The notes under the pieces were generated by a model, which worked only from the letters and a program-made list of their open reading frames with translations, did no database searches and was not told the origin of the DNA. Positions 745 to 42,585 of a DNA stretch of 54,822 bases are shown in pieces (the stretch's first letter is position 1; each line of letters opens with the position of its first letter). This DNA is from Mucilaginibacter sp. (GTDB lineage: Bacteria; Bacteroidota; Bacteroidia; Sphingobacteriales; Sphingobacteriaceae). Location of the stretch: positions 1 through 54,822 of the forward strand of contig JAQBOV010000039.1 of assembly GCA_028287895.1 (NCBI GenBank). The letters run 5' to 3'. Both the position numbers and the translations under genes were made by a program.

Positions 745-810
745 AGTCCGCAAGTCGGAAAGACCGCAAGTCAGAAAGACTGAGGTTTAGTTAGAGTTTA
801 GAATTTAGAA
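745..810 (+). repeat. Period-8 word array between sdhC and sdhA
   Basis: Five consecutive 8-base units start at 745, 753, 761, 769 and 777: AGTCCGCA, AGTCGGAA, AGACCGCA, AGTCAGAA and AGACTGAG. Directly after it, two exact 7-base units TTTAGAA lie at 797 and 804. The array fills almost the whole spacer inside an operon. Function unknown; other arrays of this design occur at further junctions in the window. Confidence 0.7.
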
Positions 811-819
811 TTTCACAAT

Positions 820-2754
820 ATGAGTTTAGATGCTAAAATTCCAAAAGGCCCTTTAGCCGAAAAATGGAGTACGCATAAGTTTAACCTTAAACTGGTTAAC
901 CCGGCCAACAAGCGTAAGTATGATGTGATCGTCGTGGGTACAGGGCTAGCGGGCGCTTCGGCGGCAGCTTCGCTGGCCGAGCTGGGTTATAATGTAAAGG
1001 CATTTTGCTTTCAGGACAGTCCGCGCCGTGCACACTCTATTGCCGCCCAGGGTGGGATCAATGCTGCCAAAAACTATCAAAACGACGGCGATAGCGTTTA
1101 CCGCTTGTTTTATGATACCATAAAAGGTGGAGACTACCGTGCCCGCGAAGGAAACGTGTACCGTCTTGCCGAAGTATCGGTAAATATTATCGACCAGTGT
1201 GTCGCCCAGGGCGTACCTTTTGCCCGCGAATACGGGGGCTTGCTGGATAACCGTTCGTTTGGGGGTTCGCAGGTTTCGCGTACATTTTACGCCAGGGGAC
1301 AAACCGGACAACAATTATTATTAGGCGCATACTCCGCTTTGAACCGCCAGATACATCTGGGCAAGGTTAAAATGTATACCCGCACAGAAATGCTCGATAT
1401 AGTAACTATTGACGGCCAGGCCAAAGGTATTGTTACCCGCAACCTGATCAATGGTCAGATAGAAACGCATACCGGCCATGCAGTGCTGCTATGTACCGGT
1501 GGCTATGGTAACGTTTTTTACCTTTCAACCAATGCAATAGGTTCAAACGTAACCGCTGCCTGGAGGGCACATAAACGTGGTGCATATTTCGCCAATCCCT
1601 GCTATACACAAATACACCCAACCTGTATTCCGGTAACCGGAGACCATCAATCGAAATTAACGCTGATGTCAGAGTCGTTACGTAATGACGGCAGGGTTTG
1701 GGCGCCAAAAACTGTTGCGATAGCCGAACAGTTACGTAAAGGTGCTATCAGGGCCGACCAGGTAAAAGAGGATGACCGCGATTACTTTCTGGAAAGAAAA
1801 TATCCATCATTCGGTAACCTGGTGCCGCGTGACGTGGCATCAAGAAACGCCAAGGAAATGGTAGACGACGGACGTGGTGTAGGCGGATCAGGATTTGCCG
1901 TTTTCCTTGACTTTGCCGATGCGATACATCGTTTAGGTAAGGATGCCGTCGCCGCCAAATATGGTAACCTGTTTGATATGTATTATCAAATTACCGACGA
2001 AGACCCCTATAAACAACCTATGCGAATTTATCCGGCCGTCCATTATACGATGGGCGGTTTGTGGGTAGACTATAACCTAAGCACCAATATACCGGGACTG
2101 TATGCTTTGGGAGAATGTAATTTTTCGGATCACGGGGCCAACCGTCTTGGTGCTTCGGCACTAATGCAGGGACTGGCCGACGGTTATTTTGTGATACCTT
2201 ATACTTTGGGCGATTACCTGGCAACCATAGGCCCTAAGCCTGTTGATGCCGGCCATCCCGCATTCGAAAAAACGAAGCAGGAAGTTACGGACCGGATCAA
2301 TAAACTGCTGGCGCTAAAAGGCACAAAAACAGTTAACGAATACCACCGTGATCTTGGCCATATTATGTGGGAGTATTGCGGCATGGCCCGTACCGAAGAA
2401 GGTTTAACCAAGGCGAAGGGCCTGATACAGGCCTTACGCGCTGATTTCTGGAAAAACGCCATTGTAGTGGGAGACAATGAAGAAGTTAATCCCGCTCTTG
2501 AAAGAGCAGGCCGTGTAGCCGACTTTTTGGAGCTTGGTGAACTGATGGTTGATGATGCCCTTATGCGCAGAGAATCGTGCGGGGGACATTTCCGCCTGGA
2601 ATCGCAAACACCGGAGGGTGAGGCCATGCGCGACGACGAGCATTTCGCTTTTGTAGCCGCCTGGGAATACAAAGGCGATAATCAGCCGGAAGTTTTAAAT
2701 AAAGAAATACTGGACTTTGAATTTGTTCATTTAACACAAAGAAGTTATAAATAA
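820..2754 (+). CDS. sdhA: Succinate dehydrogenase / fumarate reductase flavoprotein subunit
   Basis: Catalytic FAD subunit of complex II, 644 residues, oxidising succinate to fumarate at the membrane face. The dinucleotide-binding GTGLAG motif is at residues 40-45. The [11 protein letters not shown] stretch near residue 69 holds the histidine (H72) expected to carry covalent FAD. Substrate-site segments HPTCIP and [10 protein letters not shown] are present, and the C-terminal capping region with CGGHFR and an AWEY end is typical. Full length for the non-enterobacterial (Bacteroidetes/epsilon) type. It lies between sdhC and sdhB in one operon, with word arrays in both spacers. No defects seen. 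Confidence 0.97.
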
Positions 2755-2759
2755 GTAGA

Positions 2760-2828
2760 GAGTGCCGAGTGCTGAGTAGTGGGTTTCTGACCGGCTACCC
2801 ACTGCTCACAACTGACTACTCACAATTC
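2760..2828 (+). repeat. Period-7 inverted word array between sdhA and sdhB
   Basis: Left side: 7-base units GAGTGCC (2760), GAGTGCT (2767), GAGTAGT (2774) and GGGTTTC (2781). Right side on the other strand: units read GAATTGT, GAGTAGT, CAGTTGT, GAGCAGT and GGGTAGC, ending at 2794. GAGTAGTGGGT (2774-2784) can pair with ACCCACTGCTC (2797-2807), allowing one G-T pair, to form a stem with a 12-base loop. This gives a long imperfect hairpin in the spacer of a cotranscribed pair. Confidence 0.7.
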
Positions 2829-2836
2829 TATAAAAG

Positions 2837-3628
2837 ATGAGTAACGGAAATATGAATTTAACGCTCAAGGTGTGGCGACAAAAGAATGCAGGATCAAAAG
2901 GCGCATTTGTAACTTATAAGGCGGAAAACATCTCGCCGGATATGTCTTTTCTTGAAATGCTGGATGTGGTTAACGAGAGCCTGATCCACACAGGAGGCGA
3001 GCCCATCCATTTTGATCATGATTGCCGCGAAGGTATTTGCGGAATGTGCTCGCTGTATATCAACGGACACCCCCATGGCCCTAAAAACGCTATCACCACC
3101 TGCCAGCTGCACATGCGCACTTTTCACGATGGCGAGATCATCGTGATAGAACCATGGCGCGCTGCAGCCTTCCCGGTAATAAAGGATTTGGCAGTTGACC
3201 GTTCAGCGTTCGACAGGATACAGCAAGCCGGCGGTTTTGTTTCGGTAAATACAGGCGGCGTACCCGATGCGAACGAAATTCCCATACCCAAGATAATTGC
3301 CGATGAGGCATTCAACTCGGCCACCTGCATTGGCTGCGGCGCCTGCGTGGCTGCCTGTAAAAATGCTTCTGCTATGTTGTTTGTTTCGGCAAAGGTTACC
3401 CAGCTCGGCATGCTGCCGCAGGGCCAGCCTGAACGTTACACCCGCGTACAGGCTATGGTTGCACAAATGGATGCCGAAGGCTTTGGTAGCTGCACCAATA
3501 CCGGCGCCTGCGAGATCGAATGCCCGAAAGAAATAAAGATGACCAACATCGCTCACATGAATAGTGATTACTTCAGCGCCAAACTATTCAGGCAGGAAGA
3601 AATTGGCGAACATGCATCAGGTGAATAA
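2837..3628 (+). CDS. sdhB: Succinate dehydrogenase iron-sulfur subunit
   Basis: Electron-transfer subunit of complex II, 263 residues, passing electrons from FAD to quinone through three clusters. The [2Fe-2S] cysteines are C63, C68, C71 and C89. The [4Fe-4S] group is C164, C167, C170 and C174 (CIGCGAC). The [3Fe-4S] group is C219, C225 and C229 (GACEIECP). Spacing and length fit the Bacteroidetes SdhB/FrdB family. Last gene of the sdhCAB operon, with a clear intrinsic terminator 21 bases downstream. Confidence 0.97.
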
Positions 3629-3648
3629 ATTACATTATACACCACCAG

Positions 3649-3680
3649 AAAAGGCTTAAGAACATTCTTAAGCCTTTTTT
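3649..3680 (+). terminator. Intrinsic terminator of the sdh operon
   Basis: Near-perfect hairpin with AAGGCTTAAGAA pairing with TTCTTAAGCCTT, followed by a run of T to 3680. It sits directly after the sdhB stop and would end the sdhCAB transcript. The 200 bases beyond it are very AT-rich and hold no gene. Confidence 0.85.
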
Positions 3681-3880
3681 ATTTGCATTAAATCAACGAA
3701 AATTGGTGTTTTCAATATAAATTATAGCGATTTTTTACATGTTTGGTAATAAAATTATATATTTTCATATATTTTTATGTAAATTTCTTAAATTTTTATT
3801 TGTTTTTATGGACAAATACTTCCTAAATTACAATACGTAAGAAATAACTGATCAATTCATATCAATTTAGACGGAGAATT

Positions 3881-5326
3881 ATGCAGGAATCAGCTTATTT
3901 TAATCAATACAGTCCAATCCGCGGCGTTTGGGACGAAATGTATGGGGTTGATCGCATAAGGGATCATTACAGCAAGGTAATCGATTACCTGTCCACAGAA
4001 TCAACCGATGACCTGACAAAAAAGGAAGAACTGGCCAAAAGGCTTTTTATGAGCCAGGGCATCACCTTTACAGTGTATAGCAGCGGCGAGGGTATCGAGA
4101 AGATATTCCCTTTTGATATTATCCCGCGCATTATTACTGCCGCCGAGTGGGCTTTTGTAGAAAAAGGGATAAAGCAGCGCCTTACTGCCCTTAACCTGTT
4201 CCTTAAGGATGTGTATAATAATCAGTTCATTGTAAAGGATGGCATCGTACCTATTGACATTATTTACTCATGCCCGCATTTTTTACGCGAGATGTATCAG
4301 TTGCAGGTGCCTTATGATATCTATGTCCACATCGCCGGCATCGATCTGATAAGGGATCATGATGGCACATTCTATGTGCTTGAGGATAACCTGCGTACAC
4401 CATCAGGGGTAAGCTATATGCTGGAGAACCGCGAAATCACCAAACGCCTTTTCCCCGACCTGCTGCCCCAATGCGGTGTTCGCAGCGTGATGGAATATCC
4501 TAACATTCTATATAAAAACCTGCTTGCGCTTTCCCCAAGGCAGATCAGCAACCCTACAATCGTTCTTTTAAGTCCTGGGATCTATAATTCAGCTTATTTT
4601 GAGCATACCACCCTTGCAAGGCTGATGGGTGTTGAACTGGTGGAAGGACGTGACCTGGTGGTGAACAACCAGAAGGTTTACATGAAAACCACTACCGGCC
4701 TGCAGCAAGTAGATGTGATCTACCGCCGTGTGGACGACGAATATCTGGACCCGCTGGTGTTTAATCCATCGAGCATATTGGGCGTTGCCGGCATTATGGG
4801 CGCTTACCGCAAAGGAAATGTGGCCATTGTAAACGCTGTGGGCAATGGTGTTGCCGATGATAAAGCTGTTTATGTATACGTGCCTGAAATGATCAGGTAT
4901 TACTTAAATGAAGCGCCTATACTGCAAAATGTTCCTACTTACCAGTTAGGTAATATGGATGAACGGAAACACGTTTTTGACAACATCAATAAAATGGTGG
5001 TTAAAAAGACCAATGGAAGTGGCGGCTATGGTATGCTGATGGGTCATGCTTCGACAGAAGAAGAAATAGAAGATTATAAAAAGGAGATCATAAAAGATCC
5101 GCGTAATTTTATCGCACAGCCCACTATCAGCCTGTCAGCGGCACCCTGCTACATACAGGGCGAATTGCATCCGCGACGCATTGACCTGAGGCCTTACGCC
5201 CTGTGCGGACCGGACGGAATTGAAATAGTACCCGGGGGGTTAACAAGAGTAGCCCTTAAAGAAGGTTCGTTGGTGGTAAATAGTTCACAGGGTGGAGGCA
5301 GCAAGGATACATGGGTACTGGCGTAG
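3881..5326 (+). CDS. Circularly permuted ATP-grasp family protein (COG2308 type)
   Basis: 481 residues, no signal peptide, so cytoplasmic. Matches the circularly permuted ATP-grasp type 2 family: opening SPIRGVWDEMYG, VEDNLRTPSGVSY-like segment (LEDNLRTPSG near residue 168), KKTNGSGGYGML near residue 375 (nucleotide-binding glycine loop) and a C-terminal RIDLRPYA...GGLTRVAL segment. ATP-grasp enzymes join a carboxylate to an amine; the substrate of this family is unknown. Followed by an alpha-E gene and a transglutaminase gene, the cluster that comparative genomics (Iyer, Aravind and colleagues) has proposed to be a peptide amidoligase system. A weak promoter-like TTTG/TATATTTT pair lies near 3742-3775, which would give a leader of about 100 bases. 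Start chosen at the ATG after GACGGAGAATT. Confidence 0.9.
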   Translation: MQESAYFNQYSPIRGVWDEMYGVDRIRDHYSKVIDYLSTESTDDLTKKEELAKRLFMSQGITFTVYSSGEGIEKIFPFDIIPRIITAAEWAFVEKGIKQRLTALNLFLKDVYNNQFIVKDGIVPIDIIYSCPHFLREMYQLQVPYDIYVHIAGIDLIRDHDGTFYVLEDNLRTPSGVSYMLENREITKRLFPDLLPQCGVRSVMEYPNILYKNLLALSPRQISNPTIVLLSPGIYNSAYFEHTTLARLMGVELVEGRDLVVNNQKVYMKTTTGLQQVDVIYRRVDDEYLDPLVFNPSSILGVAGIMGAYRKGNVAIVNAVGNGVADDKAVYVYVPEMIRYYLNEAPILQNVPTYQLGNMDERKHVFDNINKMVVKKTNGSGGYGMLMGHASTEEEIEDYKKEIIKDPRNFIAQPTISLSAAPCYIQGELHPRRIDLRPYALCGPDGIEIVPGGLTRVALKEGSLVVNSSQGGGSKDTWVLA

Positions 5327-5327
5327 A

Positions 5328-5429
5328 GCAGCTTAAAGCAGAAAGCGAATAGCTTAAAGCGGAATTTACAGATTAGTCCATGGATACGGTAATTCAAAAA
5401 TAAATCCGAAATCGAAAATTCGAATTTCG
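5328..5429 (+). repeat. Period-7 AAAGCNN word array plus palindrome
   Basis: Five 7-base units run from 5328 to 5362: GCAGCTT, AAAGCAG, AAAGCGA, ATAGCTT and AAAGCGG. Further on, CGAAAT at 5407 pairs with ATTTCG ending at 5429 around an inner TCGAA/TTCGA pair. Both lie in the spacer between the ATP-grasp and alpha-E genes. The same AAAGC words occur at 19551-19585 and, on the other strand, at 39514-39541. Confidence 0.65.
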
Positions 5430-5441
5430 AAACAATTAAAT

Positions 5442-6374
5442 ATGTTAAGCAGAGTAGCAGCCAGTTTATATTGTTTAAGCCGTTATGTTGAGCGAAGCGA
5501 CGGTATGTTGCGGATGCTCAAAATAAATTATGCATCATCACAGGATACCGTGCAGGAATTTACCTGGGAACCGGTGATCAGGATATTTTCCGGGCAGGAT
5601 GAAGAAACAAAGAAACTGGGCAATGATAGCCGGGCGGTGATCAGGTACATGGTGACGGGGAAAAGCAATCCCAATTCCATACTTAACATTATCACCCTGG
5701 CCCGTGAAAATGCACGCGGTGTGCAGGAGCACATTACCAAGGACCTATGGCAATGCTTAAACGAATATTACCATACTGTAAAAGATATCCGCCTGGATAA
5801 CTCATTGAAAAAAGACGATCCTATCAGTGTGCTCGATATACTGATAAAACAGGTAATGCTGTACTACGGCACAGTGGAGATCACGATGGAACGGGGCGAA
5901 GGCCGTAGCTATATGAACATTGGCAAGTACCTGGAGCGCGGCATACAATCGGTAGATATTTTAGATACCAAATTTGGCTCTATAGATGATAACCCGGACT
6001 TGCTGACAGACACCACGTACTGGAAACACCTGCTGTTATCTTTAGGCGGATACGAGATCTATCTGAAGACTTACCGTGAGGGCTTTGAAGCCGGGAATGT
6101 ATTGGAACAGGTGGTATTAAATAATGATTTCCCAAGGTCAGTAATTTATGCAGTAAATCATATACAGCGTTATTTTGAACGATTAAAGAATGAAAGTAAT
6201 ATCGATCATTTCAGGGAGCTATCTTTCTATATTGGCCGGCTGCAAAGTCATATCAAATACAGTTCGGTAAAAACGATCAAGGACGAAGGACTGCATTTGT
6301 TTCTCACCCAGATACGCAGCCAGCTTTTTGGCATTGGTGATGCACTCAATAATCATTATTTTGCAAACTCCTGA
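5442..6374 (+). CDS. Alpha-E domain-containing protein (DUF403, COG2307)
   Basis: 310 residues, predicted all-helical and cytoplasmic. The opening MLSRVAASLYCLSRYVERSD matches the family signature (MLSRVA..LYWL.RY.ERAE). Biochemical role unknown; the family almost always sits beside a COG2308 ATP-grasp gene, often with a transglutaminase and sometimes an Anbu proteasome-like peptidase. Here it lies between the ATP-grasp gene (115 bases upstream, with a word array between) and the transglutaminase gene (27 bases downstream of its stop to the ATG). Function in a shared amide-bond ligation or modification pathway is an inference from that association. Confidence 0.9.
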   Translation: MLSRVAASLYCLSRYVERSDGMLRMLKINYASSQDTVQEFTWEPVIRIFSGQDEETKKLGNDSRAVIRYMVTGKSNPNSILNIITLARENARGVQEHITKDLWQCLNEYYHTVKDIRLDNSLKKDDPISVLDILIKQVMLYYGTVEITMERGEGRSYMNIGKYLERGIQSVDILDTKFGSIDDNPDLLTDTTYWKHLLLSLGGYEIYLKTYREGFEAGNVLEQVVLNNDFPRSVIYAVNHIQRYFERLKNESNIDHFRELSFYIGRLQSHIKYSSVKTIKDEGLHLFLTQIRSQLFGIGDALNNHYFANS

Positions 6375-6401
6375 TGAATAAACCTTTTGATACCGTTTAC
6401 T

Positions 6402-7376: not shown

Positions 7377-7385
7377 AATTTATTG

Positions 7386-9956: not shown

Positions 9957-10094
9957 AAATGCAAAATTCGGCTATTTAAAGTTTCCCTAAAAGTCCCACT
10001 TGTAACTTTATTAGTAAGCAAAGCGGCCTTTAAGGTAATTTTTTCATTACGGACTGCCTATAAGTTGCTAATTAAGAGCGCTATGTGTGGAGTT

Positions 10095-10589: not shown

Positions 10590-10639
10590 TAAAATAGATT
10601 GGTTTATTCCGGTGATAAAGGTAAGCATTCTGTACCATT

Positions 10640-11656: not shown

Positions 11657-11660
11657 AAGC

Positions 11661-19532: not shown

Positions 19533-19550
19533 AATACAAGATAAAAAGAA

Positions 19551-19585
19551 AAAGCTGAAAGCATAAAGCTGAAAGTGAAAAGCTT
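19551..19585 (+). repeat. Period-7 AAAGCNN word array
   Basis: Five successive 7-base units: AAAGCTG, AAAGCAT, AAAGCTG, AAAGTGA and AAAGCTT. Lies upstream of xth on the far side from sprT. Same word family as 5328-5362 and 39514-39541. Confidence 0.75.
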
Positions 19586-27887: not shown

Positions 27888-27916
27888 GTTTGAGTTAGTT
27901 ATTAGCGGATCGGGTT

Positions 27917-27973
27917 AAGTGGTTGACGGAGCTAAAACTGCTCATTTCATCAACCATGCACCTAAATCAACCA
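27917..27973. repeat. Inverted TGGTTGA words between accB and accC
   Basis: TGGTTGA at 27920-27926 is matched by TCAACCA at 27950-27956 and again at 27967-27973, giving alternative stems. A third TCAACCA copy lies just inside the accB end near 27988. The period is less regular than in the other arrays. Confidence 0.4.
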
Positions 27974-27977
27974 AGAA

Positions 27978-28490: not shown

Positions 28491-28666
28491 TGTGCAGATG
28501 TGCAAATATGCCAGTTTCGAACGTGCAGATATACAGATGTGCGGATGATTTAATTAGGTGATTTAGTGATTATCAAATTAACAAAACATATTTAATAAAG
28601 TTCAAATTATAAATGTTCAATTAAGGAATTCTATAAAAAGACATTTGCACATCCAAAATCTGCACA
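28491..28666. repeat. Period-8 TGTGCARA array with inverted arm, fabH-accB spacer
   Basis: Units TGTGCAGA (28491), TGTGCAAA (28499), TATGCCAG (28507), a 7-base gap, then CGTGCAGA (28522), TATACAGA (28530) and TGTGCGGA (28538). About 100 bases on, the opposite strand reads TGTGCAGA (28666-28659), a 7-base TTTTGGA and TGTGCAAA (28651-28644). The two sides can pair into a long hairpin within the operon. The same words recur at 42508-42585. Confidence 0.75.
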
Positions 28667-28667: not shown

Positions 28668-29657
28668 TCAATACGCCCACTTCAAATAAATTGAGCCCCA
28701 TGTAAATCCACCGCCGAATGCCGCCAGGATCAAATTGTCGCCCTTTTTAAATTTACTTTCCCACTCCCATAAACATAGCGGAATGGTTCCATTGGTAGTA
28801 TTACCATACCGCTCAATATTGATGATCACTTTATCGGCGCTCACGCCGGTACGGTTAGCTGTAGCATCAATTATACGCTTGTTTGCTTGATGCGGAACAA
28901 GCCATGCAATATCGTCGGATTTGAGATTGTTACGCTCCATCACTTCGGCAGCAACGTCCGCCATATTGGTTACCGCGAACTTGAATACGGCCTGCCCTTC
29001 CTGGTAAGCGAAATGCTCGAGGGCGTCAACGGTTGCGTGAGTAGCTGGCTTTAATGAGCCTCCGGCCTTCTGATGAAGAAAGGCGCGGCCCGAGCCATCA
29101 CTTTTTAAAATGGAGTCCATCACACCGTATCCATCGGTATTGGGTTCAAGCAGGGCCGCTCCGCAACCATCACCAAAAATGATACAGGTAGCGCGGTCCT
29201 TATAATTTACAATCGCCGACATTTTATCGCCCCCCACTACCAATACTTTAGTGTGCTTTCCGCTTTCAATAAACTGGGCCCCTGTAGCCAAACCAAAAAT
29301 AAATCCTGAACAGGCTGCCTGCAAATCGTATCCCCAGGCATTTTTGGCGCCAATCTTGTCGGCCAATATATTTGCGGTGGCCGGGAAAGGCATATCCGGT
29401 GTCGTAGTACAAAATATGATCAATTCTATTTCTTCCGCGCTGATCCCTCTTTTCTTCAGCAGGCCCTCAACAGCAGGCACTGCAAGGTCTGAGGTGGCAA
29501 GGCCTTCGCCTTTAAGTATGCGCCGCTCCTTTATGCCGGTTCTGCTCATTATCCACTCGTCATTCGTTTCCACCATTGTTTCCAACTCATGGTTAGTTAA
29601 CACATAGTCGGGAACATATCCATTTACAGCAGTAATTGCAGCATGAATTTTATTCAT
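28668..29657 (-). CDS. fabH: 3-oxoacyl-ACP synthase III
   Basis: 329 residues, condensing enzyme that starts fatty-acid chains from acyl-CoA and malonyl-ACP. Catalytic triad C116 (QAACSGF), H256 (VPHQANKR) and N286 (ERYGNTTNG). Family ends with FGGGFTWGS. Sits between plsX (11 bases upstream) and the accB spacer, as in many bacterial plsX-fabH operons. Confidence 0.96.
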
Positions 29658-31353: not shown

Positions 31354-31371
31354 TGAGCGACAATTAGCCCG

Positions 31372-31617: not shown

Positions 31618-31655
31618 AGTTTGACCGCATTCCGTTTTGACTGACGGATCATAGG

Positions 31656-32165: not shown

Positions 32166-32467
32166 TGGAGTGGGCTTAAGGCTGAAGGGTTTATATAAAA
32201 GTAAAGATTGTATTTCACGTATACAAAAAAATCACAGGAGCTCTGGGCTTTTACCCTGCCGGCTATTCTTGCACCAGATGGGGAAAAATGATTGGCCCGT
32301 CTTTTGAAATTTTGATACTGCAACCAACAATCTCGAAAAATTTACCCGATTGGCCGCCATGCCCTGTGCTTGATGAAAGCAAGCTTACCTTCTTATCATA
32401 AAGTATTTTCGTAACTTTATTTTAAGACCATTTATTATATTCTTTCAACTTAATACCCGGTGTTTAT
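32166..32467. other. Gene-free stretch
   Basis: 302 bases between divergent genes. A degenerate -7 box TATTTTCG at 32404-32411 could serve the downstream plus-strand gene, but a -33 box is not evident. I see no RNA gene, repeat or terminator. Confidence 0.5.
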
Positions 32468-33250: not shown

Positions 33251-33424
33251 ATTTTAAAAGGAAATTGCGCTCCATTAAGCTCATGTCAACCAAAAGTGCC
33301 AGCCGCAGGTTCAATCAATAATATTGTAATTGGCTAAAAATCCCCAACGCAACAGCCAGGGGATGCTAGGGGTAGCAGGGGGCTTTATTTTGGTGATTTC
33401 GCCCAATGAACTCACATAAATTAC

Positions 33425-33454
33425 AAAAAAAGAGCCCAGTTGGGGCTCTTTTTA
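33425..33454. terminator. Bidirectional intrinsic terminator
   Basis: AAAAAGAGCCC (33427-33437) pairs perfectly with GGGCTCTTTTT (33443-33453) around AGTTG. A/T runs on both sides serve the susCD transcript (minus) and the RMD1-like gene (plus). Between 33251 and 33420 there are also small GC hairpins (ATCCCC/GGGGAT at 33340-33364) of unknown role. Confidence 0.85.
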
Positions 33455-33476
33455 GGCAGATGTTAGTTAATGTGGT

Positions 33477-35075: not shown

Positions 35076-35099
35076 GTCTTATAATTTTGATATTAATTA

Positions 35100-38000
35100 T
35101 TAAAATTTTGCTGATATGTTGAAACCTAAACTTCTTACGCTAGGTTGTCCAAACAGGTCAATGCCTTGCAAGGTATTATCAGTTGATAAAGATGTTTCAG
35201 GATCGAAAGGTGCCTTCAGGTAAAAGAAGAATAAATTACGTCCTGTAAATGCAATACGAATATTACTGATTTTGTTGTGGAATGTATTACCGGGAAATGT
35301 ATAACCTAAGGTGGCCTCTCTAAAACGTATATTGGTTGCAGAATACGCATATAGAGCCAACGCACCTGTGCGGCCGCCGATTGTTTGATAATATTGTTGA
35401 ACAGCTGCTAAGCTTTGTTGGCTGCCATTGGTAGCATTTCTGGCATTTGCCGAAGCTTGTGATACACCATATTGATCTAAATAAGCCTGGGTCATATCTA
35501 ATACCGTACCACCAAAGCGACCATCAATTGTGAATGCAAGATCAAAATTACTAAACCTGAATGTGTTAGTCCACCCTAATAAGAAATTTGGATTCGAGTT
35601 GCCTACATCTTTATAAGAATAAGCGCCATTCGGCGCATCCTGTAATTGAGGGAGCCCATTAACTAACACAACATTGCCGTTTGCATCTCTTTTGACATCC
35701 CTTGCATAAAGTTCGCCGTAAGGCTGTCCAACCCTGGCCTGTAATGAATAACTGTCAAAAGCGTTTCCGAAGATAAATTGATTATGTTGAACACCTGAAG
35801 CATCAGTAAATAATGCGAGTACTTTATTACGATTGAGGGAAAAAGTTACAGTTGAACTCCATTGAAGATCACCGGCAATTTTACCTTTATAGCCTAAACT
35901 GCCTTCAAAACCTTCGTTTCGGACGTTACCGCCATTTACGTAATAGTTGCTATATAAACTCGAAGGAGGATAAGGGACGTTGAATAGCTGGTTGCGTGTA
36001 TTGGTGTGGTAATAAGTTGCATCAAAACTCAAATGATCATTAAAGAATCGCCATTCCGTACCAACTTCAAACGAACTGGTTTTTTCCGGTTTTAAATTTG
36101 GAAAAGGCGAAGTTAGGTTAAAGCTGAGAGCGCCGTTTGTCATAGGATATTGGGTAATAGCAGCATAAGGTGGAAGACCATTACCAACATCAGAATATGA
36201 AACGCGCAGTTTACTGAAGCTGATAAAATCAGGCATTTTAAACATACTACTCAATACATCACTTAGACCTAAGGATGGGTAGAAGAATGAATCACCCACT
36301 GTATAACCTAGAGTTGAAGACCAGTCATTGCGGGTGGTTATATCCAAAAATAAATACTTTTTGTAATTAAAATCAACGCTTGCAAAAACCGACTGCACTT
36401 GATTCTCTTGTTTAGTTGTTTGATTGAACGGGTTTCCTGCAGTAAGATTTAGGTTAGATACATTGAAGAAGTTAGGGATATTGCCTAAATGGCCGCCAAA
36501 GCCAAGTGAACTATTTTGGTTATCCTGTATACTTGCGCCCAAAGTACCATTGATATTAAAATCGTGAGACAGATCTTTATTAAAATTCAACAACAAATCG
36601 CTGTAAACCTGGTTAGAGCCGCTTGAAGTGTAACTATAATTTCCTGCCACACCGGATAGCAGCGTTGTACTTCCGGCATAAAGGTCCTGATTGCTTGTTT
36701 GGTCAGCTTTATCCAGGCTCACACGCCCTTGTAAACTAAGCCAGCTATTGATCTCATATTTTGCCAATACCGTTGCCAATATACGATTAAGCCCTTGCCC
36801 ATTAACATTGCGATACTGTATCCAATAAGGATTTTCCAGCAGATCCCCTGCAACACCCGGATTAGTATAAGGGTTGATCCAATTTGGTAATTGGATATTC
36901 CGTGTCGGGTCATATGATTCGTAGTTCTTATATTGGTTAAAATCTGTCCCCCTTGGGAATAAATAAGTACTGGTTAAAGGGTTAAAATAGGTGCCTACGC
37001 CCGGTCGGTCAACTGTATTTTGAAAAATGTAACTTGCATTTACATCAAGGGTCATTTTATCATTCAATAGTTTTGTTGTATTGTGTACAGTAATGTTGTT
37101 GCGAGTAAACGAGTTGTTTGGCTCAATTCCGGTTGCATGCGTGTTGGCATATGATATAAATGTTTGATTTTTATCAGTACCTGTACTTAAGGAAAATGAG
37201 TTGATCGCATTTACACCTGTATTAAAAAAGCTTGACGGCTGGAAATTTGGACTACCTGCCGCTTCTCTTGCACCCCAGGAATTAATTGATGTGTTATTCA
37301 TAACACCTGTATCACCACGGGCGTATTGGGTTTGTAATTTTGGAGTTAAAACCGCTTTATCAAATGTTGTTGATGAATTTAAGGTTATAGTTGTCTTGCC
37401 GGCTTTACCTTTTTTTGTGGTTACCAATATTACACCATTAGCTGCTGCACTCCCATAAAGGGCAGATGCTGATGCACCTTTTAATACACTGATGCTTTCA
37501 ATATCGTCAGGATTAATGTTTGAAATACCATCCCCGCCGTCTGGGCCATAGGAAAATGGCCCATTAGGCTGCCCACTGGTAAGAGAATTAAGCGGCACAC
37601 CATCAATCACATATAAAACATTATTATTACCGTTGATGGACTTGTTGCCTCTTAAAACAACCCTGGTTGAACCACCTGCGCCAGATGAGCTTTGTGTTAT
37701 TTGCAAACCAGCTACCTTACCATCAAGGCTGTTTACAAAACTTGCATCCTTAGCCACTCCCAATTCTTTTCCCGAAACGGTTTGCTGATCGTAAGTTAAT
37801 GATGCTGAAGTTTTGGTAAGGCCAAGGGCTGTAACAACCACTTCGGTAAGATTTTTTGAATCTGGTGTCAATACTACATTTGCGGTGTCACCGGTTCCAA
37901 CAGTTACTTCCTTTACCGTATAACCAACAAATGAAAACACCAGGATTTCACCGGGTTGTGCATCAAGGGTATATAGCCCGTCAACACCGGTCTGCGTACC

Positions 38001-38222
38001 ACGGCTTGTGCCTTTCACCTTTACAGAAACGCCTGGCAAGGGCAATCCCATTTCATCTTTTACAGCCCCTTTTACGGGAGCTTGTTCAAGGCCTTTTTTG
38101 CTGACAGATATGTTAAACATACCTTTAACACTCCGGTGTGCTGAAGCATGTGTTTCACTCAAAAAGAGTAAAAAACATACTGCCAAACCCCAAGCTTTTG
38201 GAGATAGTAAAGTAAATTTCAT
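35100..38222 (-). CDS. SusC/RagA family TonB-linked outer membrane protein
   Basis: 1040 residues. Signal peptide to about residue 28 (ETHASA), a carboxypeptidase-regulatory-like domain (about 50-128, VKGAVKDEMGLPLPGVSVKVKGT), a plug domain with the SusC signature NINPDDIESISVLKGASASALYGSAAANGV (about 233-262, split here only by name), and a 22-strand barrel ending in SLGFNISAKF. Imports a nutrient with TonB energy, with SusD as lid. First gene of the susC-susD pair; the 158-base upstream spacer holds two perfect inverted repeats. Confidence 0.94.
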   Translation of the reverse strand: MKFTLLSPKAWGLAVCFLLFLSETHASAHRSVKGMFNISVSKKGLEQAPVKGAVKDEMGLPLPGVSVKVKGTSRGTQTGVDGLYTLDAQPGEILVFSFVGYTVKEVTVGTGDTANVVLTPDSKNLTEVVVTALGLTKTSASLTYDQQTVSGKELGVAKDASFVNSLDGKVAGLQITQSSSGAGGSTRVVLRGNKSINGNNNVLYVIDGVPLNSLTSGQPNGPFSYGPDGGDGISNINPDDIESISVLKGASASALYGSAAANGVILVTTKKGKAGKTTITLNSSTTFDKAVLTPKLQTQYARGDTGVMNNTSINSWGAREAAGSPNFQPSSFFNTGVNAINSFSLSTGTDKNQTFISYANTHATGIEPNNSFTRNNITVHNTTKLLNDKMTLDVNASYIFQNTVDRPGVGTYFNPLTSTYLFPRGTDFNQYKNYESYDPTRNIQLPNWINPYTNPGVAGDLLENPYWIQYRNVNGQGLNRILATVLAKYEINSWLSLQGRVSLDKADQTSNQDLYAGSTTLLSGVAGNYSYTSSGSNQVYSDLLLNFNKDLSHDFNINGTLGASIQDNQNSSLGFGGHLGNIPNFFNVSNLNLTAGNPFNQTTKQENQVQSVFASVDFNYKKYLFLDITTRNDWSSTLGYTVGDSFFYPSLGLSDVLSSMFKMPDFISFSKLRVSYSDVGNGLPPYAAITQYPMTNGALSFNLTSPFPNLKPEKTSSFEVGTEWRFFNDHLSFDATYYHTNTRNQLFNVPYPPSSLYSNYYVNGGNVRNEGFEGSLGYKGKIAGDLQWSSTVTFSLNRNKVLALFTDASGVQHNQFIFGNAFDSYSLQARVGQPYGELYARDVKRDANGNVVLVNGLPQLQDAPNGAYSYKDVGNSNPNFLLGWTNTFRFSNFDLAFTIDGRFGGTVLDMTQAYLDQYGVSQASANARNATNGSQQSLAAVQQYYQTIGGRTGALALYAYSATNIRFREATLGYTFPGNTFHNKISNIRIAFTGRNLFFFYLKAPFDPETSLSTDNTLQGIDLFGQPSVRSLGFNISAKF

Positions 38223-38380
38223 AGTACTTTGTTTTTTTTAATTTAATGCTGGTTGAATTTAGTTGATCTTCGATTTCTTAAAATCAAGAGAAATTATAAA
38301 GACGTAAATCTTTATAAAAAAATTTAAAAAGATGCGCGCTTTTTAAAATTTGTTTGTAAAAAGTTCTTTACAAATAAAAA
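38223..38380. promoter_or_regulatory. Spacer upstream of susC with two inverted repeats
   Basis: TTATAAAGA (38294-38302) and TCTTTATAA (38309-38317) form a perfect 9-base inverted repeat with a 6-base gap. TTTGTAAA (38353-38360) and TTTACAAA (38367-38374) form another with a 6-base gap. The second may end the pdxA transcript, though its T run is poor; the first could be an operator. No consensus promoter was identified. Confidence 0.4.
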
Positions 38381-39436
38381 TTAATCCCTATCCCGGCTAA
38401 GTTTTGAAATTATCAGCGGATTTTCCATCAGCTCGGCGGTTTCCTGGCGATGTTTCACAATATGAGCGGCGGTGAACATCGCTTCGCGGAAAGATATTTC
38501 TGAGGCCAGGTTCTTTCCGGCTATATCATATGCGGTTCCATGATCCGGCGAAGTGCGCACGAAATTTAAACCTGCGGTAAAATTAACTCCTGATTCGAAA
38601 GATATTTGTTTAAAAGGGATCAGGCCCTGGTCGTGATACATGGCTAATACGGCATCAAACTGCATATAGGTGCCATTAGCGAAGAATCCATCTGCCGAAT
38701 ACGGGCCAAAAGCCAGTATATCATTGGATCTCGCTTCTTCAATAGCAGGTATAATGGTATCCTTCTCCTCCATGCCGATAAGCCCGTTATCACCAGCATG
38801 GGGGTTTAGCCCCAATACCGCGATTCTGGGTTTACGTACCCAAAAGTCTTGCCTTAAACTGGCGTCCATCAGTCTTAACTTTGCCAGTATCTTTTCAATA
38901 GTAACCGCTTCGGCAACTTTATTTAATGGAATGTGTCCGGTTACTACGCCAACGCGTAAAGTATCGCTCACCAAAAACATCAACGATTCAGCAGTTCCTG
39001 CCTTTTCCTGTAAATATTCAGTATGCCCCGGAAATTTAAATTCGTCGCTTTGAATGTTGTCCTTATTAATAGGAGCGGTAACCAGCGCATCAATATCACC
39101 ATTTATCAGGTCTGCGGTTGCGCGCTGTAATGATAACAAAGCATATTTACCACCGATTTCGTTAACAAGTCCCAAATCTATTTTGACATCCTCTTCCCAG
39201 CAGTTGATCATATTCGCTTTTTTGTGCTGCGCGTGCGAAGGATGGTTGATCACGTGAAAATTCAATTCGCCGGCGTTAATAGCGCGGCGATGAAACGATG
39301 CCACTTTGGTATGGCCATAAACAATCGGCGTAAAATAATCATATAGCTGGTTGTCAGCAAGCGTTTTGATGATCACCTCCAACCCTATTCCGTTAACATC
39401 ACCTATACTTATACCTATCTTAAGTTTCTCGCTCAT
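38381..39436 (-). CDS. pdxA: 4-hydroxythreonine-4-phosphate dehydrogenase
   Basis: 351 residues, NAD-dependent enzyme of vitamin B6 (pyridoxal phosphate) synthesis, acting before PdxJ. GISIGDVNGIGLEV start, TAPINKDNI, FPGHTEYLQ, LNPHAGDNGLIG, MYHDQGLIPFKQ and VRTSPDHGTAYDIAG with metal-ligand histidines and aspartate. Full length. Divergent from rsmA across a spacer with paired palindromes. Confidence 0.95.
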   Translation of the reverse strand: MSEKLKIGISIGDVNGIGLEVIIKTLADNQLYDYFTPIVYGHTKVASFHRRAINAGELNFHVINHPSHAQHKKANMINCWEEDVKIDLGLVNEIGGKYALLSLQRATADLINGDIDALVTAPINKDNIQSDEFKFPGHTEYLQEKAGTAESLMFLVSDTLRVGVVTGHIPLNKVAEAVTIEKILAKLRLMDASLRQDFWVRKPRIAVLGLNPHAGDNGLIGMEEKDTIIPAIEEARSNDILAFGPYSADGFFANGTYMQFDAVLAMYHDQGLIPFKQISFESGVNFTAGLNFVRTSPDHGTAYDIAGKNLASEISFREAMFTAAHIVKHRQETAELMENPLIISKLSRDRD

Positions 39437-39464
39437 GTTATATTATGATTATACTGATTCCCCT

Positions 39465-39504
39465 GGTGAATTCACCGATTATATTTATCTATGGTGATTT
39501 CACC
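39465..39504. promoter_or_regulatory. Two near-identical GGTGAWTTCACC palindromes
   Basis: GGTGAATTCACC (39465-39476) is a perfect palindrome, and GGTGATTTCACC (39493-39504) repeats it with one central change, 28 bases on. They lie between the divergent pdxA and rsmA genes. They could be operators for a dimeric regulator or another word array; the sequence cannot decide. Confidence 0.45.
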
Positions 39505-39513
39505 AAGCTTTTC

Positions 39514-39541
39514 TTTCCGCTTCCGGCTTTCCGCTTTTGGC
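39514..39541 (-). repeat. Period-7 AAAGCNN word array, minus orientation
   Basis: Plus-strand units TTTCCGC, TTCCGGC, TTTCCGC and TTTTGGC follow each other from 39514. On the minus strand they read as AAAGC-type words, the family seen at 5328-5362 and 19551-19585. Confidence 0.65.
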
Positions 39542-39629
39542 TTTGTTATGCAAATAAAAGATTTTTAGGCTTATAAAATCTGATTAAAGGACAAATATCA
39601 CGTAATTTGCGCAAATAATTGAATTAATA

Positions 39630-40409
39630 ATGTCATTGGTAAGAGCAAAAAAGCATCTTGGTCAGCACTTTCTTACTGATAAAAACATTGCTGCCAAAAT
39701 AGTTGATAGCCTGCGCCCGGAAAATAAATATACCCAGGTACTTGAAGTTGGCCCGGGAATGGGCGTATTATCCGACTTCCTTTTACAAAAAACACACCTG
39801 CAAACTTTCCTGATCGATATTGACACGGAATCATATGAGTTCCTTCAAAAAAAGTATCCGCAATTGGGCGAACGCCTGATCAATGATGATTTTTTGGCGA
39901 TGGATTTTAAAAAGGTTTTTAAAGAGCCCTTCGGAATCCTCGGCAATTTCCCCTACAATATTTCATCGCAGATATTATTTAAAGTACTGGATAACCGGCA
40001 GCAGGTGGTAGAAGTGGTGGGCATGTTTCAAAAAGAAGTGGCTGAGCGTTGTAGCTCCAAAGCGGGCAGTAAGGAGTATGGCATCTTAAGCGTTTTTTTG
40101 CAGGCCTATTATAAGGTTGAATACTTGTTTACCGTCAAAGCAGGCGTTTTTAATCCGCCGCCAAAGGTGTTATCCGCCGTGATCAGGCTTACGCGTAATG
40201 ATGCGGAGCAATTAAATTGTGATGAAAAGCTTTTCTGGCAGGTGGTGAAAGCCGGATTTAATCAGCGCCGCAAAACCTTGCGAAACGCGCTGTCGTCATT
40301 GATCAATAAAGAAAAAATGACTGATGAACCGGCGCTTGACCTGCGTGCCGAGCGATTAAGTGTAGAGGATTTTGTTAATTTGACCAATAAGATTTCTGCT
40401 AATAGATAA
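39630..40409 (+). CDS. rsmA: 16S rRNA (adenine(1518)-N(6)/adenine(1519)-N(6))-dimethyltransferase
   Basis: 259 residues, SAM-dependent enzyme that dimethylates two adenines near the 3' end of 16S rRNA during ribosome assembly. KKHLGQHFLTDKNI start, SAM loop LEVGPGMGVLSDFL, and catalytic NFPYNISSQI (NLPY variant). Full length. Its stop shares an A with the next ATG (TAATG), so it is translationally coupled to the dehydrogenase gene. A degenerate -7 box GTAATTTG lies 21 bases upstream, next to the palindrome TTTGCGCAAA. Confidence 0.96.
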   Translation: MSLVRAKKHLGQHFLTDKNIAAKIVDSLRPENKYTQVLEVGPGMGVLSDFLLQKTHLQTFLIDIDTESYEFLQKKYPQLGERLINDDFLAMDFKKVFKEPFGILGNFPYNISSQILFKVLDNRQQVVEVVGMFQKEVAERCSSKAGSKEYGILSVFLQAYYKVEYLFTVKAGVFNPPPKVLSAVIRLTRNDAEQLNCDEKLFWQVVKAGFNQRRKTLRNALSSLINKEKMTDEPALDLRAERLSVEDFVNLTNKISANR

Positions 40410-41353
40410 TGAACACAAAAAATATACTGATCGTTGACGATATACACCCCATCTTTATAGAACAGGCGGAGGCTTTAGGCTACCATTGCAATTACCAGCC
40501 TGCCATAAAACCAGAGCAGGCTCTTGAAATTATAGGCGATTATGAAGGGCTGGTGATACGTTCGAAATTTTTGGTGGACCGCAAAGTGATCGATATCAGC
40601 AAAAATCTGCGCTTTATTTGCAGGGCCGGAGCCGGTATGGATAACATTAATGAAGATTATGCCCGGGAAAAGGGCATCATGCTGATCAATGCCCCGGAAG
40701 GCAATATGGATGCGGTCGGCGAACATGCCATAGGCCTGCTGCTCGGCTTAATGAACAACATTAACCGCTCTGATGCAGAAATAAGGGAAGGAGTGTGGAA
40801 ACGTGAGGCCAACCGGGGTTATGAATTGAAAGGCAAAACTGTAGGGATCATTGGTTACGGCTTTATGGGGAAAAGCTTTGCTAAAAAATTATCGGGTTTT
40901 GAGGTCAGTGTAATTGCCTATGATAAATATAAAACCGGGTTCAGCGATCAGTATGCCCGCGAGGTAAGCATGGAAGAAATAGTAAAACAGGCTGATCTGG
41001 TAAGCTTTCATGTCCCTTTAACCGCTGAAACAAAGGGCCTGGTAAATGATGAATACCTGTTCCATTTTAAAAAACCTATTTTTTTGCTGAACACATCCCG
41101 GGGTAAGGTGGTACAAACCAAAGCGGTTTTGAATGCCATAAAGCAGGGCAAAATTTTAGGTGCAGGTTTGGATGTCCTTGAAGTTGAAAAATTTCCGGCA
41201 TTGGCAGAACAAGATTGGTTTAATGAATTAAGACAGTGTAATAAAGTTATATTAACACCTCATGTGGCCGGCTGGACCTTTGACTCCTACCGCCGGATCA
41301 GCGAAGTAATGGCTGATAAATTGAGTAAACTGACCCGCCGAGTTATTAATTGA
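40409..41353 (+). CDS. D-isomer-specific 2-hydroxyacid dehydrogenase
   Basis: 314 residues, NAD(P)-dependent. Rossmann loop GIIGYGFMGKSFAKKL (about 143-158), catalytic Arg in NTSRGKVV, Glu in LDVLEVEKFP and His in TPHVAGWTFDSY. Resembles 3-phosphoglycerate dehydrogenase (SerA) and hydroxypyruvate reductases but lacks the ACT or ASB regulatory domains, so the substrate is not certain. Overlaps the rsmA stop by one base. Followed by the greA leader. Confidence 0.88.
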   Translation: MNTKNILIVDDIHPIFIEQAEALGYHCNYQPAIKPEQALEIIGDYEGLVIRSKFLVDRKVIDISKNLRFICRAGAGMDNINEDYAREKGIMLINAPEGNMDAVGEHAIGLLLGLMNNINRSDAEIREGVWKREANRGYELKGKTVGIIGYGFMGKSFAKKLSGFEVSVIAYDKYKTGFSDQYAREVSMEEIVKQADLVSFHVPLTAETKGLVNDEYLFHFKKPIFLLNTSRGKVVQTKAVLNAIKQGKILGAGLDVLEVEKFPALAEQDWFNELRQCNKVILTPHVAGWTFDSYRRISEVMADKLSKLTRRVIN

Positions 41354-41379
41354 TCATTCCAATTTATCGACCAAAAAAA

Positions 41380-41412
41380 TTTGGATATTAAAACTTAAAT
41401 CTCTTATCTTCG
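41380..41412 (+). promoter_or_regulatory. Promoter of the greA leader
   Basis: TTTG at 41380-41383, a 21-base spacer and TATCTTCG at 41405-41412, one mismatch from TTTG/TAnnTTTG. Transcription would begin near 41419, just before the first terminator hairpin. Confidence 0.5.
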
Positions 41413-41425
41413 TTTTACTGTAAAG

Positions 41426-41470
41426 CAAGACTATGTAGGCAACAGCCGATATAGTCTTGTTTGTTTTTTA
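41426..41470 (+). terminator. First terminator hairpin before greA
   Basis: CAAGACTAT (41426-41434) pairs perfectly with ATAGTCTTG (41451-41459), with an inner GGC-AACA-GCC stem, then TTTGTTTTTT. Confidence 0.75.
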
Positions 41471-41478
41471 AAGACACA

Positions 41479-41512
41479 CGTCCTTCATTAAATGTAAGGA
41501 CGGTTTTTTTTT
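41479..41512 (+). terminator. Second terminator hairpin before greA
   Basis: CGTCCTT (41479-41485) pairs with AAGGACG (41496-41502), with an inner CAT/ATG pair, followed by a run of nine T. 39 bases before the greA ATG. Confidence 0.8.
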
Positions 41513-41550
41513 GGTGTCAATTTACAAACTAAAGAATTAATAGGTAATTT

Positions 41551-42024
41551 ATGGCAGAGGTAGCATACTATACCAAAGAAGGTATAGAGAAATTAAAGGA
41601 AGAATTACAACAGTTAAAAACAACAGGCAGGGCAAACATATCCAAAGCTATTGCCGAAGCCAGGGATAAAGGCGATCTTTCTGAAAATGCAGAATATGAT
41701 GCCGCCAAGGAAGCACAGGGTTTACACGAAGCTAAAATTTCGCAAATGCAGGAATTATTAGCCAGTGCTCGCTTGCTTGACGAATCAAAATTGGATACTT
41801 CAAAAGTATTGGCTTTATCTATAGTTAAGATAAAAAACGTTAACAATGGTGTTACCATGAGCTATCAGCTGGTATCTGAGAGCGAGGCTGATCTTAAATC
41901 GGGCAAGATATCGGTAAGTTCACCTATTGCTAAAGGTCTGTTGGGCAAAAAAGTGGGCGAAAAGACCGAGATCACTGTACCGGCAGGTAAAATGGAATTC
42001 GAGATACTCGAGATAAGCAGGTAA
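41551..42024 (+). CDS. greA: Transcription elongation factor GreA
   Basis: 157 residues. N-terminal coiled coil (about 8-75, YYTKEGIEKLKEELQQLK...DLSENAEYDAAKEAQ) whose acidic tip (the DLSENAEYD loop) enters the RNA polymerase secondary channel to trigger cleavage of backtracked RNA; C-terminal FKBP-like domain with SPIAKGLLGKKVGEKTEI. Full length. Preceded by two tandem terminators behind a candidate promoter, so expression may depend on read-through. Followed by a period-8 array and the HIT gene. Confidence 0.97.
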   Translation: MAEVAYYTKEGIEKLKEELQQLKTTGRANISKAIAEARDKGDLSENAEYDAAKEAQGLHEAKISQMQELLASARLLDESKLDTSKVLALSIVKIKNVNNGVTMSYQLVSESEADLKSGKISVSSPIAKGLLGKKVGEKTEITVPAGKMEFEILEISR

Positions 42025-42030
42025 TTAATT

Positions 42031-42098
42031 AGTGAAGTACTGAATGATTGAATTATTGATTTGCCTTAACTCAGTAAATCAATAATTCAATAACTCAA
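42031..42098. repeat. Period-8 inverted word array between greA and HIT gene
   Basis: Left units: AGTGAAGT (42031), ACTGAATG (42039), ATTGAATT (42047) and ATTGATTT (42055). Right units: TAACTCAG (42067), TAAATCAA (42075), TAATTCAA (42083) and TAACTCAA (42091). TTGAATTATTGATTT pairs exactly with AAATCAATAATTCAA, a 15-base perfect stem in a co-directional spacer. Confidence 0.8.
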
Positions 42099-42108
42099 CA
42101 AATAATCA

Positions 42109-42504
42109 ATGACCATATTCTCAAAAATAGTTGCCGGTGAAATACCCGCATACAAGGTAGCCGAAACGGTTGAGTTTTTGGCATTTTTAGACATCAACCC
42201 GCTTGCCGAAGGGCATGTATTGGTGATCCCAAAAAAGGAAATTGATTATCTATTCGACCTGGATGATGAGACTTATGCAGGGCTGCAAATATTCGCTAAA
42301 ATAGTTGCCACCGGTTTAAGAAAAGCCATTCCCTGCAAAAGGATTGGTGTAGCGGTTATCGGCCTCGAAGTTCCGCATGCGCATATCCATTTGATCCCGA
42401 TGAATAACGTGAGCGACCTCAATTTTTCCCGGCCAAAACTAAGTTTTACGCCGGAACAACTGGAAGCTACAACTGAAAGAATAAAAGATGCGCTGCGAAT
42501 TTGA
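42109..42504 (+). CDS. HIT family (histidine triad) nucleotide-binding protein
   Basis: 131 residues, cytoplasmic nucleotide hydrolase or transferase of the Hint type. IFSKIVAGEIPAYKVAE start, LAFLDINPLAEGHVLVIPKK, and the catalytic triad motif VPHAHIHLIPM near residue 95. Full length. Downstream of greA and probably cotranscribed across the period-8 hairpin. Converges on ruvC. Confidence 0.93.
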   Translation: MTIFSKIVAGEIPAYKVAETVEFLAFLDINPLAEGHVLVIPKKEIDYLFDLDDETYAGLQIFAKIVATGLRKAIPCKRIGVAVIGLEVPHAHIHLIPMNNVSDLNFSRPKLSFTPEQLEATTERIKDALRI

Positions 42505-42507
42505 GGA

Positions 42508-42585
42508 TGTGCAGATTTCAAATGTGCAAATGGTTTTATGACAGCAATAATTTAAACATCATTTGCATATCCACGCATCTACACA
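42508..42585. repeat. Period-8 TGTGCARA inverted array between HIT gene and ruvC
   Basis: Left: TGTGCAGA (42508), 7-base TTTCAAA and TGTGCAAA (42523). Right, opposite strand: TGTGTAGA (42585-42578), TGCGTGGA (42577-42570) and TATGCAAA (42569-42562). Same words and order as 28491-28666. Between convergent genes, it may work as a two-way transcript end. Confidence 0.75.

Follow-up and report, generated by a model that had tools for sequence, protein, structure and literature searches.

Intergenic arrays of 7- and 8-nucleotide words in Mucilaginibacter as the probable arms of a small element related to S23-encoding intervening sequences

A 54,822-nt stretch of Mucilaginibacter sp. (assembly GCA_028287895.1, contig JAQBOV010000039.1; hereafter the window) carries, in several of its spacers, degenerate words that repeat every 7 or 8 nt. 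The described systems that come closest to these word arrays are the intervening sequences (IVSs) of bacterial 23S rRNA that encode the S23 protein and the intergenic heptamer repeats of several other lineages. The S23 open reading frame (ORF) of the IVS lies in the loop of a stem formed by complementary ends, the stem-loop is cut out by RNase III, and the whole has been termed a selfish element (PMC4990558). TAACTGA heptamers are intergenic in Beggiatoaceae, Cyanobacteria and five Bacteroidetes; in one genome they most often end 1 nt before a start codon, and a cyanobacterial pair shows insertions and deletions in steps of 7, with other heptamers mixed in (PMC4679880, MacGregor 2015). Cyanobacterial heptamers, including the GGGGA(T/C)T repeats of Nostoc, are mostly intergenic, and the GGGAATC heptamers of Xanthomonas lie between aligned ORFs, come in inverted pairs (70 in one genome and 75 in another), show their G-rich strand after stops and their C-rich strand before starts, and were interpreted as G-quadruplex repeats (PMC4692102). 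The original prediction, which pointed out the arrays in the window, knew of no named system for them and overlooked these heptamers of cyanobacteria, Beggiatoaceae, some Bacteroidetes and Xanthomonas.

Compared with these systems, the word arrays of the window are probably the arms of a small intergenic element, a relative of the S23-encoding IVS that mostly lacks its gene. The likeness to the rRNA form is seen in relatives of the window's genome, where an S23 (PF05635) ORF is held between complementary, stem-forming ends (61 of 71 ORFs; 11 places between sdhA and sdhB). The copies in the window differ in having no ORF, but the spacers at 2755–2836 and 42025–42108 do have complementary ends. 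The elements examined also differ from the rRNA form in that they sit between the stop and start codons of protein-coding genes and not in 23S rRNA, in that their arms are tandem 7- or 8-nt words varying between S23 groups, and in that they occur in several copies per genome, with ORF-less forms abundant. With the Xanthomonas repeats, the Mucilaginibacter arms share the placement of G-rich words after stops and C-rich words before starts. The intergenic, tandem and start-proximal character of the known heptamer repeats is likewise seen in the window's genome, with units that are degenerate and include octamers. The TAACTGA repeats differ in being one word, with one inverted repeat among 170 sets (PMC4679880). 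The link of heptamer-type repeats to S23 genes is, to our knowledge, new relative to the literature searched: the term S23 is absent from the main texts of PMC4679880 and PMC4692102 (Rehm 2015), and a search by title and abstract, with most subscription journals outside its reach, gave no such link among the matches listed.

The S23 family (PF05635, 23S_rRNA_IVP) was matched in 60 of 61 Mucilaginibacter genomes, that of the window included, with 348 matches summed, and in one relative (locus L062) word arms surround an ORF recognized by the S23 profile between sdhA and sdhB. We analyzed 71 S23 ORFs, comprising one from the window's own assembly, the 30 loci first returned and 40 from the top of the list; the second PF05635 match of the own assembly (L192) was not recovered by the seed profile. 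Flanks of 160 nt were complementary to each other (z >3) at 61 of the 71 ORFs, compared with 6 of 285 control genes of 80–200 amino acids from the window's genome. A period-7 or period-8 array with a score of at least 11 lay to the left of 51 S23 ORFs and to the right of 44 (controls, 21 and 12 of 285, respectively), and 60 of the 71 had one on one side or both. In a look for other genes held between inverted arrays, the highest array score beside any of the 15 top-ranking controls of the 285 was 9. Arrays at S23 loci began a median of 3 nt past the upstream stop (56 of 71 loci measurable, 52 of them within 8 nt) and finished a median of 7 nt ahead of the next ATG (43 of 71 measurable). Of the 61 complementary loci, 51 combined a G-rich left arm with a C-rich right arm, and both neighbors of the S23 ORF were co-directional in 64 of 70.

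We then compared words among the 61 loci with z >3, the ten with z <=3 being dropped and pairs from the same junction removed. When flanking DNA defined the junction groups, 49 of 75 pairs whose S23 proteins were at least 65% identical shared words, as against a maximum of 21% in 2000 permutations (p 0.0005). Because this grouping used DNA similarity, the test was repeated with flanking proteins as the basis (26 junction groups), and 73 of 102 such pairs then shared words (permutation maximum 20%, p 0.0005). Every word-sharing pair was at least 62% identical in protein (75 pairs in the protein grouping, 51 in the DNA grouping), and most different-junction pairs were unrelated in both protein and words. 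The word-sharing pairs across junctions indicate that gene and arms are found together at many places, within a set of loci that are not independent.

The junction between sdhA and sdhB was compared in 39 records (sdhA was not found in L301, and L228 and L304 are one place). S23 with its arms occupies 11 distinct places, confirmed by hidden Markov model (HMM), in L287 behind a further gene, whereas in L065 the site is empty, with 3 nt between the genes. Hairpins without an ORF carry GAGT, AGTC, CAAGAAT and GGTTGATTAGG words, and other genes or hairpins are found in L286, L294, L295, L297 and L302. The word CAAATCTAA, which ends the right arm of the S23 element, is kept before sdhB in 11 spacers that have no S23 and precedes 1 of 758 control starts. 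In a Sphingobacterium locus (L066), an inverted pair of S23-family words was seen by eye at the same junction, with no S23 in the locus. The simplest reading of these sequences is that an S23 element was once present and then lost, and that word hairpins without S23 mark former S23 sites.

Beyond single junctions, the periodicity was measured in the window together with 60 further stretches of its assembly (4.46 Mb, 111 contigs, 92.5% complete), a sample of 1,120,834 bases with genes called by a simple longest-ORF rule and 791 intergenic regions. The nearest named matches to its sdhA place this assembly in Mucilaginibacter. Relative to dinucleotide shuffles, intergenic self-match was raised at lags 7 and 8 (z 8.1 and 10.9), at lags 14 and 15 (z 7.4 and 6.1) and at lag 21 (z 8.4); lags 3 (z 15.8) and 4 (z 8.3) were also elevated, lags 6, 9, 11 and 12 rose moderately (z 3.8–4.9), and lag 10 was flat (z 0.7). 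At an array score of at least 11, 35 regions held a period-7 array against 5.0 in shuffles (about 7-fold) and 29 a period-8 array against 2.5 (about 12-fold); period 6 was not enriched (5 against 4.2), and period 9 gave 9 against 2.8. In all, 60 of the 791 regions carried an array of period 7 or 8, where about 7.5 would be expected by chance. The word-array pattern is thus real and genome-wide, and some single sites are not strong alone. These values bear out the description in the original prediction, of intergenic arrays whose period holds nearly constant at 7 or 8 while their letters drift. Such arrays stand clear of shuffled spacers across the genome and recur in relatives. Its statement that the arrays occur only between genes was addressed solely through the autocorrelation of coding DNA, which showed a period of 3 alone. 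Co-directional arrays ended a median of 6 nt from the next start, compared with 40 nt for random placement (32 arrays). Periods 11 (14 regions against 3.8 expected) and 16 (20 against 1.0) were in excess in these spacers as well. Further palindromes were also seen: the spacers L011:4764-4981 and L011:5657-5876 are 82% identical over 132 nt and hold a long palindrome (GTAAACTAAGTTGACT...) that is not of the 7/8 type, and the spacer L049:14128-14294 holds the palindrome GTTCCACGTGGAAC in three copies.

Many of the arrays in these 60 spacers form one side of an imperfect inverted pair, with G-rich words first and C-rich words second. Nine of 25 co-directional array spacers were predicted to fold at z < -3, compared with 16% of spacers without arrays (40–220 nt, own genome); the counts were 0 of 3 for convergent and 2 of 4 for divergent array spacers. 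Judged by eye and with no tally made, the listed word hairpins mostly enter the start codon and have no T-tract, whereas a T-tract is present at several of the genome's ordinary hairpins. The spacer between greA and a gene named HIT from matches below the curated cut-off was compared in 30 genomes, the best of the 118 that matched and counting that of the window. It was predicted to fold at z < -2 in all 30 and at z < -3 in 28 (median -5.8), compared with 18% of the own genome's co-directional spacers at z < -3, and it was the sole conserved junction folded. Its words vary: the window and some relatives have TTATTGAN, one other relative has GATTAGAG and many have GGTTGATTAGGTGAG, and five of its hairpins (L161, L162, L165, L167 and L168) have no word array visible by eye. 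Between L153 and L154 greA is 98% identical and the spacer 61%, whereas between L150 and L151 the values are 97% and 98%. Several of the spacers L149–L155 show one G-rich arm facing two tandem C-rich arms, with two mutually exclusive hairpins possible; in L062 the S23 ORF sits between two tandem C-rich arms that face one G-rich arm.

Within the window, eight sites had been named at the outset. Tandem Repeats Finder, run with its score limit lowered to 30, recovered five of them (745–784, score 59; 19551–19585, 52; 39514–39541, 50; 42031–42098, 31 and 43; 42508–42585, 31) and reported none at 2760–2828, 5328–5362 and 28491–28666; of these three, the last was found by the array scan only, and the other two are weak singly. 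Three of the eight sites are therefore strong singly, with scores of at least 50, and the rest are moderate or weak. An inverted second arm, absent from the first description, is present at 2760–2828, 28491–28666, 42031–42098 and 42508–42585, and two arrays, at 791–813 and 5402–5431, were added to the list. Four of the eight arrays (745–784, 2760–2828, 5328–5362 and 19551–19585) match S23 flanks at p <0.05, uncorrected. The arrays were rightly set apart from fixed-unit microsatellites and from CRISPR: their units are degenerate, 7 or 8 nt long and without spacers, whereas CRISPR (clustered regularly interspaced short palindromic repeats) consists of identical repeats of 20–40 nt with spacers. 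Rfam gave no match at gathering score anywhere in the window.

In order along the window, with strand unassigned except where given, an AGTC-word array of period 8 (745–784; Tandem Repeats Finder 748–780, period 16) lies between an ORF at 13–741 (sdhC; this gene and sdhB are named by position) and sdhA, and 51% of its 6-mers are common to the flanks of S23 locus L274 (shuffle maximum 37%, p 0.016). The best array of the same spacer is built of TTTAGAA words of period 7 (791–813; score 14; Tandem Repeats Finder period 7, score 39). The sdhA–sdhB spacer (2755–2836, plus strand) holds an inverted pair whose 5' arm carries GAGTNNT words and whose 3' arm carries ACTCNC words, and forms a predicted hairpin (fold z -5.2 / -5.4; period-7 score 10). 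The AAAGCNN array at 5328–5362, below score 12 in the array scan, has 50% of its 6-mers in common with the flanks of S23 locus L280 (shuffle maximum 47%, p 0.016). The TCGAAAT-word array of period 7 at 5402–5431 (score 11) resembles the spacers L010:17563-17682, L046:7202-7320 and L041:11172-11277. Between divergent genes lie a further AAAGCNN array at 19551–19585 (Tandem Repeats Finder periods 7 and 14; score 12 at 19534–19582; p 0.049 against the L280 flanks) and, near rsmA, a GCTTTCC/AAAGCNN-type array at 39514–39541 (periods 7 and 14; score 13), whose match to S23 flanks is not significant (p 0.34). A GGTTGATTTAGG-type spacer at 27888–27977 (minus strand) is predicted to form a hairpin (fold z -3.9), and its words are, by eye, like those of period-8 hairpins of relatives.

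An inverted pair of TGTGCANA words of period 8 (28491–28666, minus strand; array 28526–28585, score 12) lies between the end of fabH (28668–29657, minus strand) and the next minus-strand ORF, and the spacer is 70% identical over 70 nt to L056:6670-7418. The latter falls within L056:6600-7450, where the genes, as named by eye, look like a ribosomal protein operon with ftsY behind it; three gaps there hold word hairpins of three families, the last of them after an ordinary-looking terminator. The spacer between greA and HIT (42025–42108, plus strand) is filled from stop to start by an inverted pair of TTATTGAN/NTCAATAA words of period 8, with an array score of 24 and a predicted hairpin (fold z -4.7 / -4.9). 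A second TGTGCANA inverted pair lies between the convergent HIT and ruvC (42508–42585; Tandem Repeats Finder 42507–42532, period 8), with both arms visible and no call in the array scan. Arrays of the TGTGCANA octamer occur in 101 of 120 Mucilaginibacter genomes, a reversed-pattern control giving 0 in all, and were not found in genomes such as G002, G007, G023 and G036.

The association of S23 with word arrays extends beyond the genus. PF05635 was matched in 61 of 80 genomes of a Bacteroidota-wide sample, and among 30 Bacteroidota S23 loci, all parsed by HMM in place of an earlier parse (ORFs in 18 of 30, 7 at z >3), 21 had arrays, the best period being 7 (16 loci) or 8 (5) and none other, with periods 5–12 allowed; 15 of the 30 were complementary at z >3. 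One S23 query against plasmids matched 28 records, 22 of them cyanobacterial by name. All ten cyanobacterial plasmid S23 loci examined of these 22 bear a period-7 array with a score of at least 12 within 170 nt of the ORF, scored without shuffle control, and 7 of the 10 were complementary at z >3. The heptamers at these loci resemble what we take to be the short tandemly repeated repetitive (STRR) sequences. On the plasmids of Anabaena sp. 90 (L347) and Pseudanabaena galeata (L352), an S23 gene with heptamer arrays stands between cas6 and cas4 of a CRISPR locus. One query for S23 in phages gave no match. Array density was compared in a few genomes: 2 of 236 spacers in G036, the sole genome of the 61 without PF05635; 5 of 59 in G021 (15 matches); and 11 of 259 in the partly overlapping samples of G114 and G013, PF05635 having been searched in G013 alone (5 matches). 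A comparison of G114 with G013 over 200 kb each yielded a single colinear match of 37 kb besides a few of about 3 kb, and was not used for turnover. In these few samples, the array densities are suggestive of a tie to PF05635 presence.

The elements found in relatives suggest the following model. In those relatives, the element runs from G-rich 7- or 8-nt words just past a stop codon, through the gene of an S23-type four-helix bundle, to complementary C-rich words just ahead of the next start codon; the copies in the window lack the gene. The pair of arms would be transcribed within the operon mRNA and fold into a stem, probably cut by RNase III by analogy with the S23-encoding IVS of 23S rRNA, and the predicted hairpins make the structured role raised in the original prediction plausible. 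The S23 protein, itself probably pentameric, would bind the words of its own arms; the entries of two solved relatives, 2gsc and 2rld, contain five chains each, which fits a pentamer. S23 has a further relative in the Avd protein of diversity-generating retroelements, which have a reverse transcriptase and a template repeat alongside. Gene and arms would move jointly, perhaps via RNA; the precise way in which the element fills the stop-to-start gap, together with the existence of an rRNA form, does no more than suggest an RNA route on or near the ribosome. The ORF would then be lost and the arms persist, because an insert exactly between stop and start would do little harm, and they would drift as whole words are gained, lost or copied from one arm to the other.

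Several observations weigh against this model. There is no S23 gene in the window, and of the two PF05635 matches in its assembly one has an internal stop and the other falls below the family cut-off; with these two matches, its 43 array-bearing spacers among 735 are out of line with the density trend. G002, with 3 matches, has arrays in only 5 of 253 spacers. Many own arrays have no clear second arm, and for only 6 of 43 does the share of 6-mers in common with S23 flanks significantly exceed that of shuffled sequences. The TGTGCANA arrays match no S23 flank examined (p 0.51 at 28491–28666 and 0.82 at 42508–42585), the match of the greA–HIT TTATTGAN array is weak and not significant (p 0.066), and the 30 greA–HIT spacers, at 67–180 nt, are too short for an S23 ORF. 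In G002, none of five arrays lies within 20 nt of a start. The 71 S23 loci fall into 23 to 26 junction groups. The rank correlation between protein identity and word similarity across junctions, the test applied first, was not significant (rho 0.056, p 0.069), and the cut of at least 65% identity was chosen after it had been seen. A single empty sdhA–sdhB site was seen (L065); the 11 spacers with the leftover word are mostly from close relatives and therefore represent few events, and CAAATCTAA could in principle predate S23. A search of two Beggiatoaceae genomes for PF05635 returned no match, which does not establish absence.

The arrays could instead belong to host regulatory or processing hairpins (attenuation, processing, stability or translational coupling), for which words would be a cheap means of building a stem and S23 genes would be passengers. 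The greA–HIT junction speaks for this, folded as it is in all 30 genomes, including the five without visible words, and too small for an S23 ORF, so that the host reading still stands there; the arrays' closeness to the downstream start agrees with it too. We nevertheless consider it unlikely as a general account, because it accounts neither for the word arms found around a single protein family in two phyla nor for words that track S23 similarity across junctions, and because the word hairpins, judged by eye, mostly lack a T-tract and the sdhA–sdhB junction can be empty.

Replication slippage alone, in which heptamer and octamer units grow and decay where selection is weak, that is, in spacers, was among the causes first proposed and is mentioned for heptamers in PMC4692102. 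Changes of length and words between close species, as in L153 and L154, are what it would produce, but in other cases the spacer is no quicker to change than greA (L150 and L151), and slippage predicts no inverted second arm, no fixed placement between stop and start and no central S23 gene. Since it gives neither complementary arms nor a tie to S23, we find it improbable as the whole cause. Dispersed intergenic palindromes are also known as repetitive extragenic palindromes and bacterial interspersed mosaic elements (REP/BIME), which go with REP-associated tyrosine transposases (RAYT), and as miniature inverted-repeat transposable elements (MITEs). Movement of this kind would account for dispersed families with similar arms within a genome, and most relatives examined (51 of 60) carry Y1_Tnp genes. 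The array-rich assembly of the window (92% complete), however, has no Y1_Tnp/RAYT match, which speaks against RAYT/IS200 as the mover and with it against the RAYT idea of the original prediction; the arms are tandem words, and the gene they bracket is S23, not a transposase. A REP/BIME-like or MITE-like origin is thus the least credible of these accounts, and we give it hardly any weight.

We therefore retain the S23-related element as the probable origin of the arrays; read from sequence, its support is that arms bracket S23 genes and lie between stop and start, that closely similar S23 proteins have words in common even at different junctions, that some spacers without S23 have retained a word of its arm, and that hairpins are predicted. 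A wider proposal can be offered tentatively, at somewhat less than even confidence: S23 and tandem 7- or 8-nt word arms may together make up a single widespread class of mobile element, probably carried by RNA, that enters between a stop and the next start (or a 23S rRNA loop), in which each S23 clade reads its own word through pentamer contacts spaced every 7 or 8 nt, and whose ORF-less remains would be the heptamer repeats of cyanobacteria, Xanthomonas, Beggiatoaceae and Bacteroidetes. Judging from the names, the solved S23 relative 2gsc (XCC0516) bears a locus name of the Xanthomonas genome in PMC4692102. Heptamer repeats are known in several lineages without an agreed cause, and the tie to S23 would supply a common origin. 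S23-type genes are widespread, and we know of no established task for them outside rRNA; the link offers a candidate ligand for the protein, the words of its own arms. The pairs of protein and word would then form a natural set for asking how a small four-helix bundle could read nucleic acid at a period of 7 or 8.

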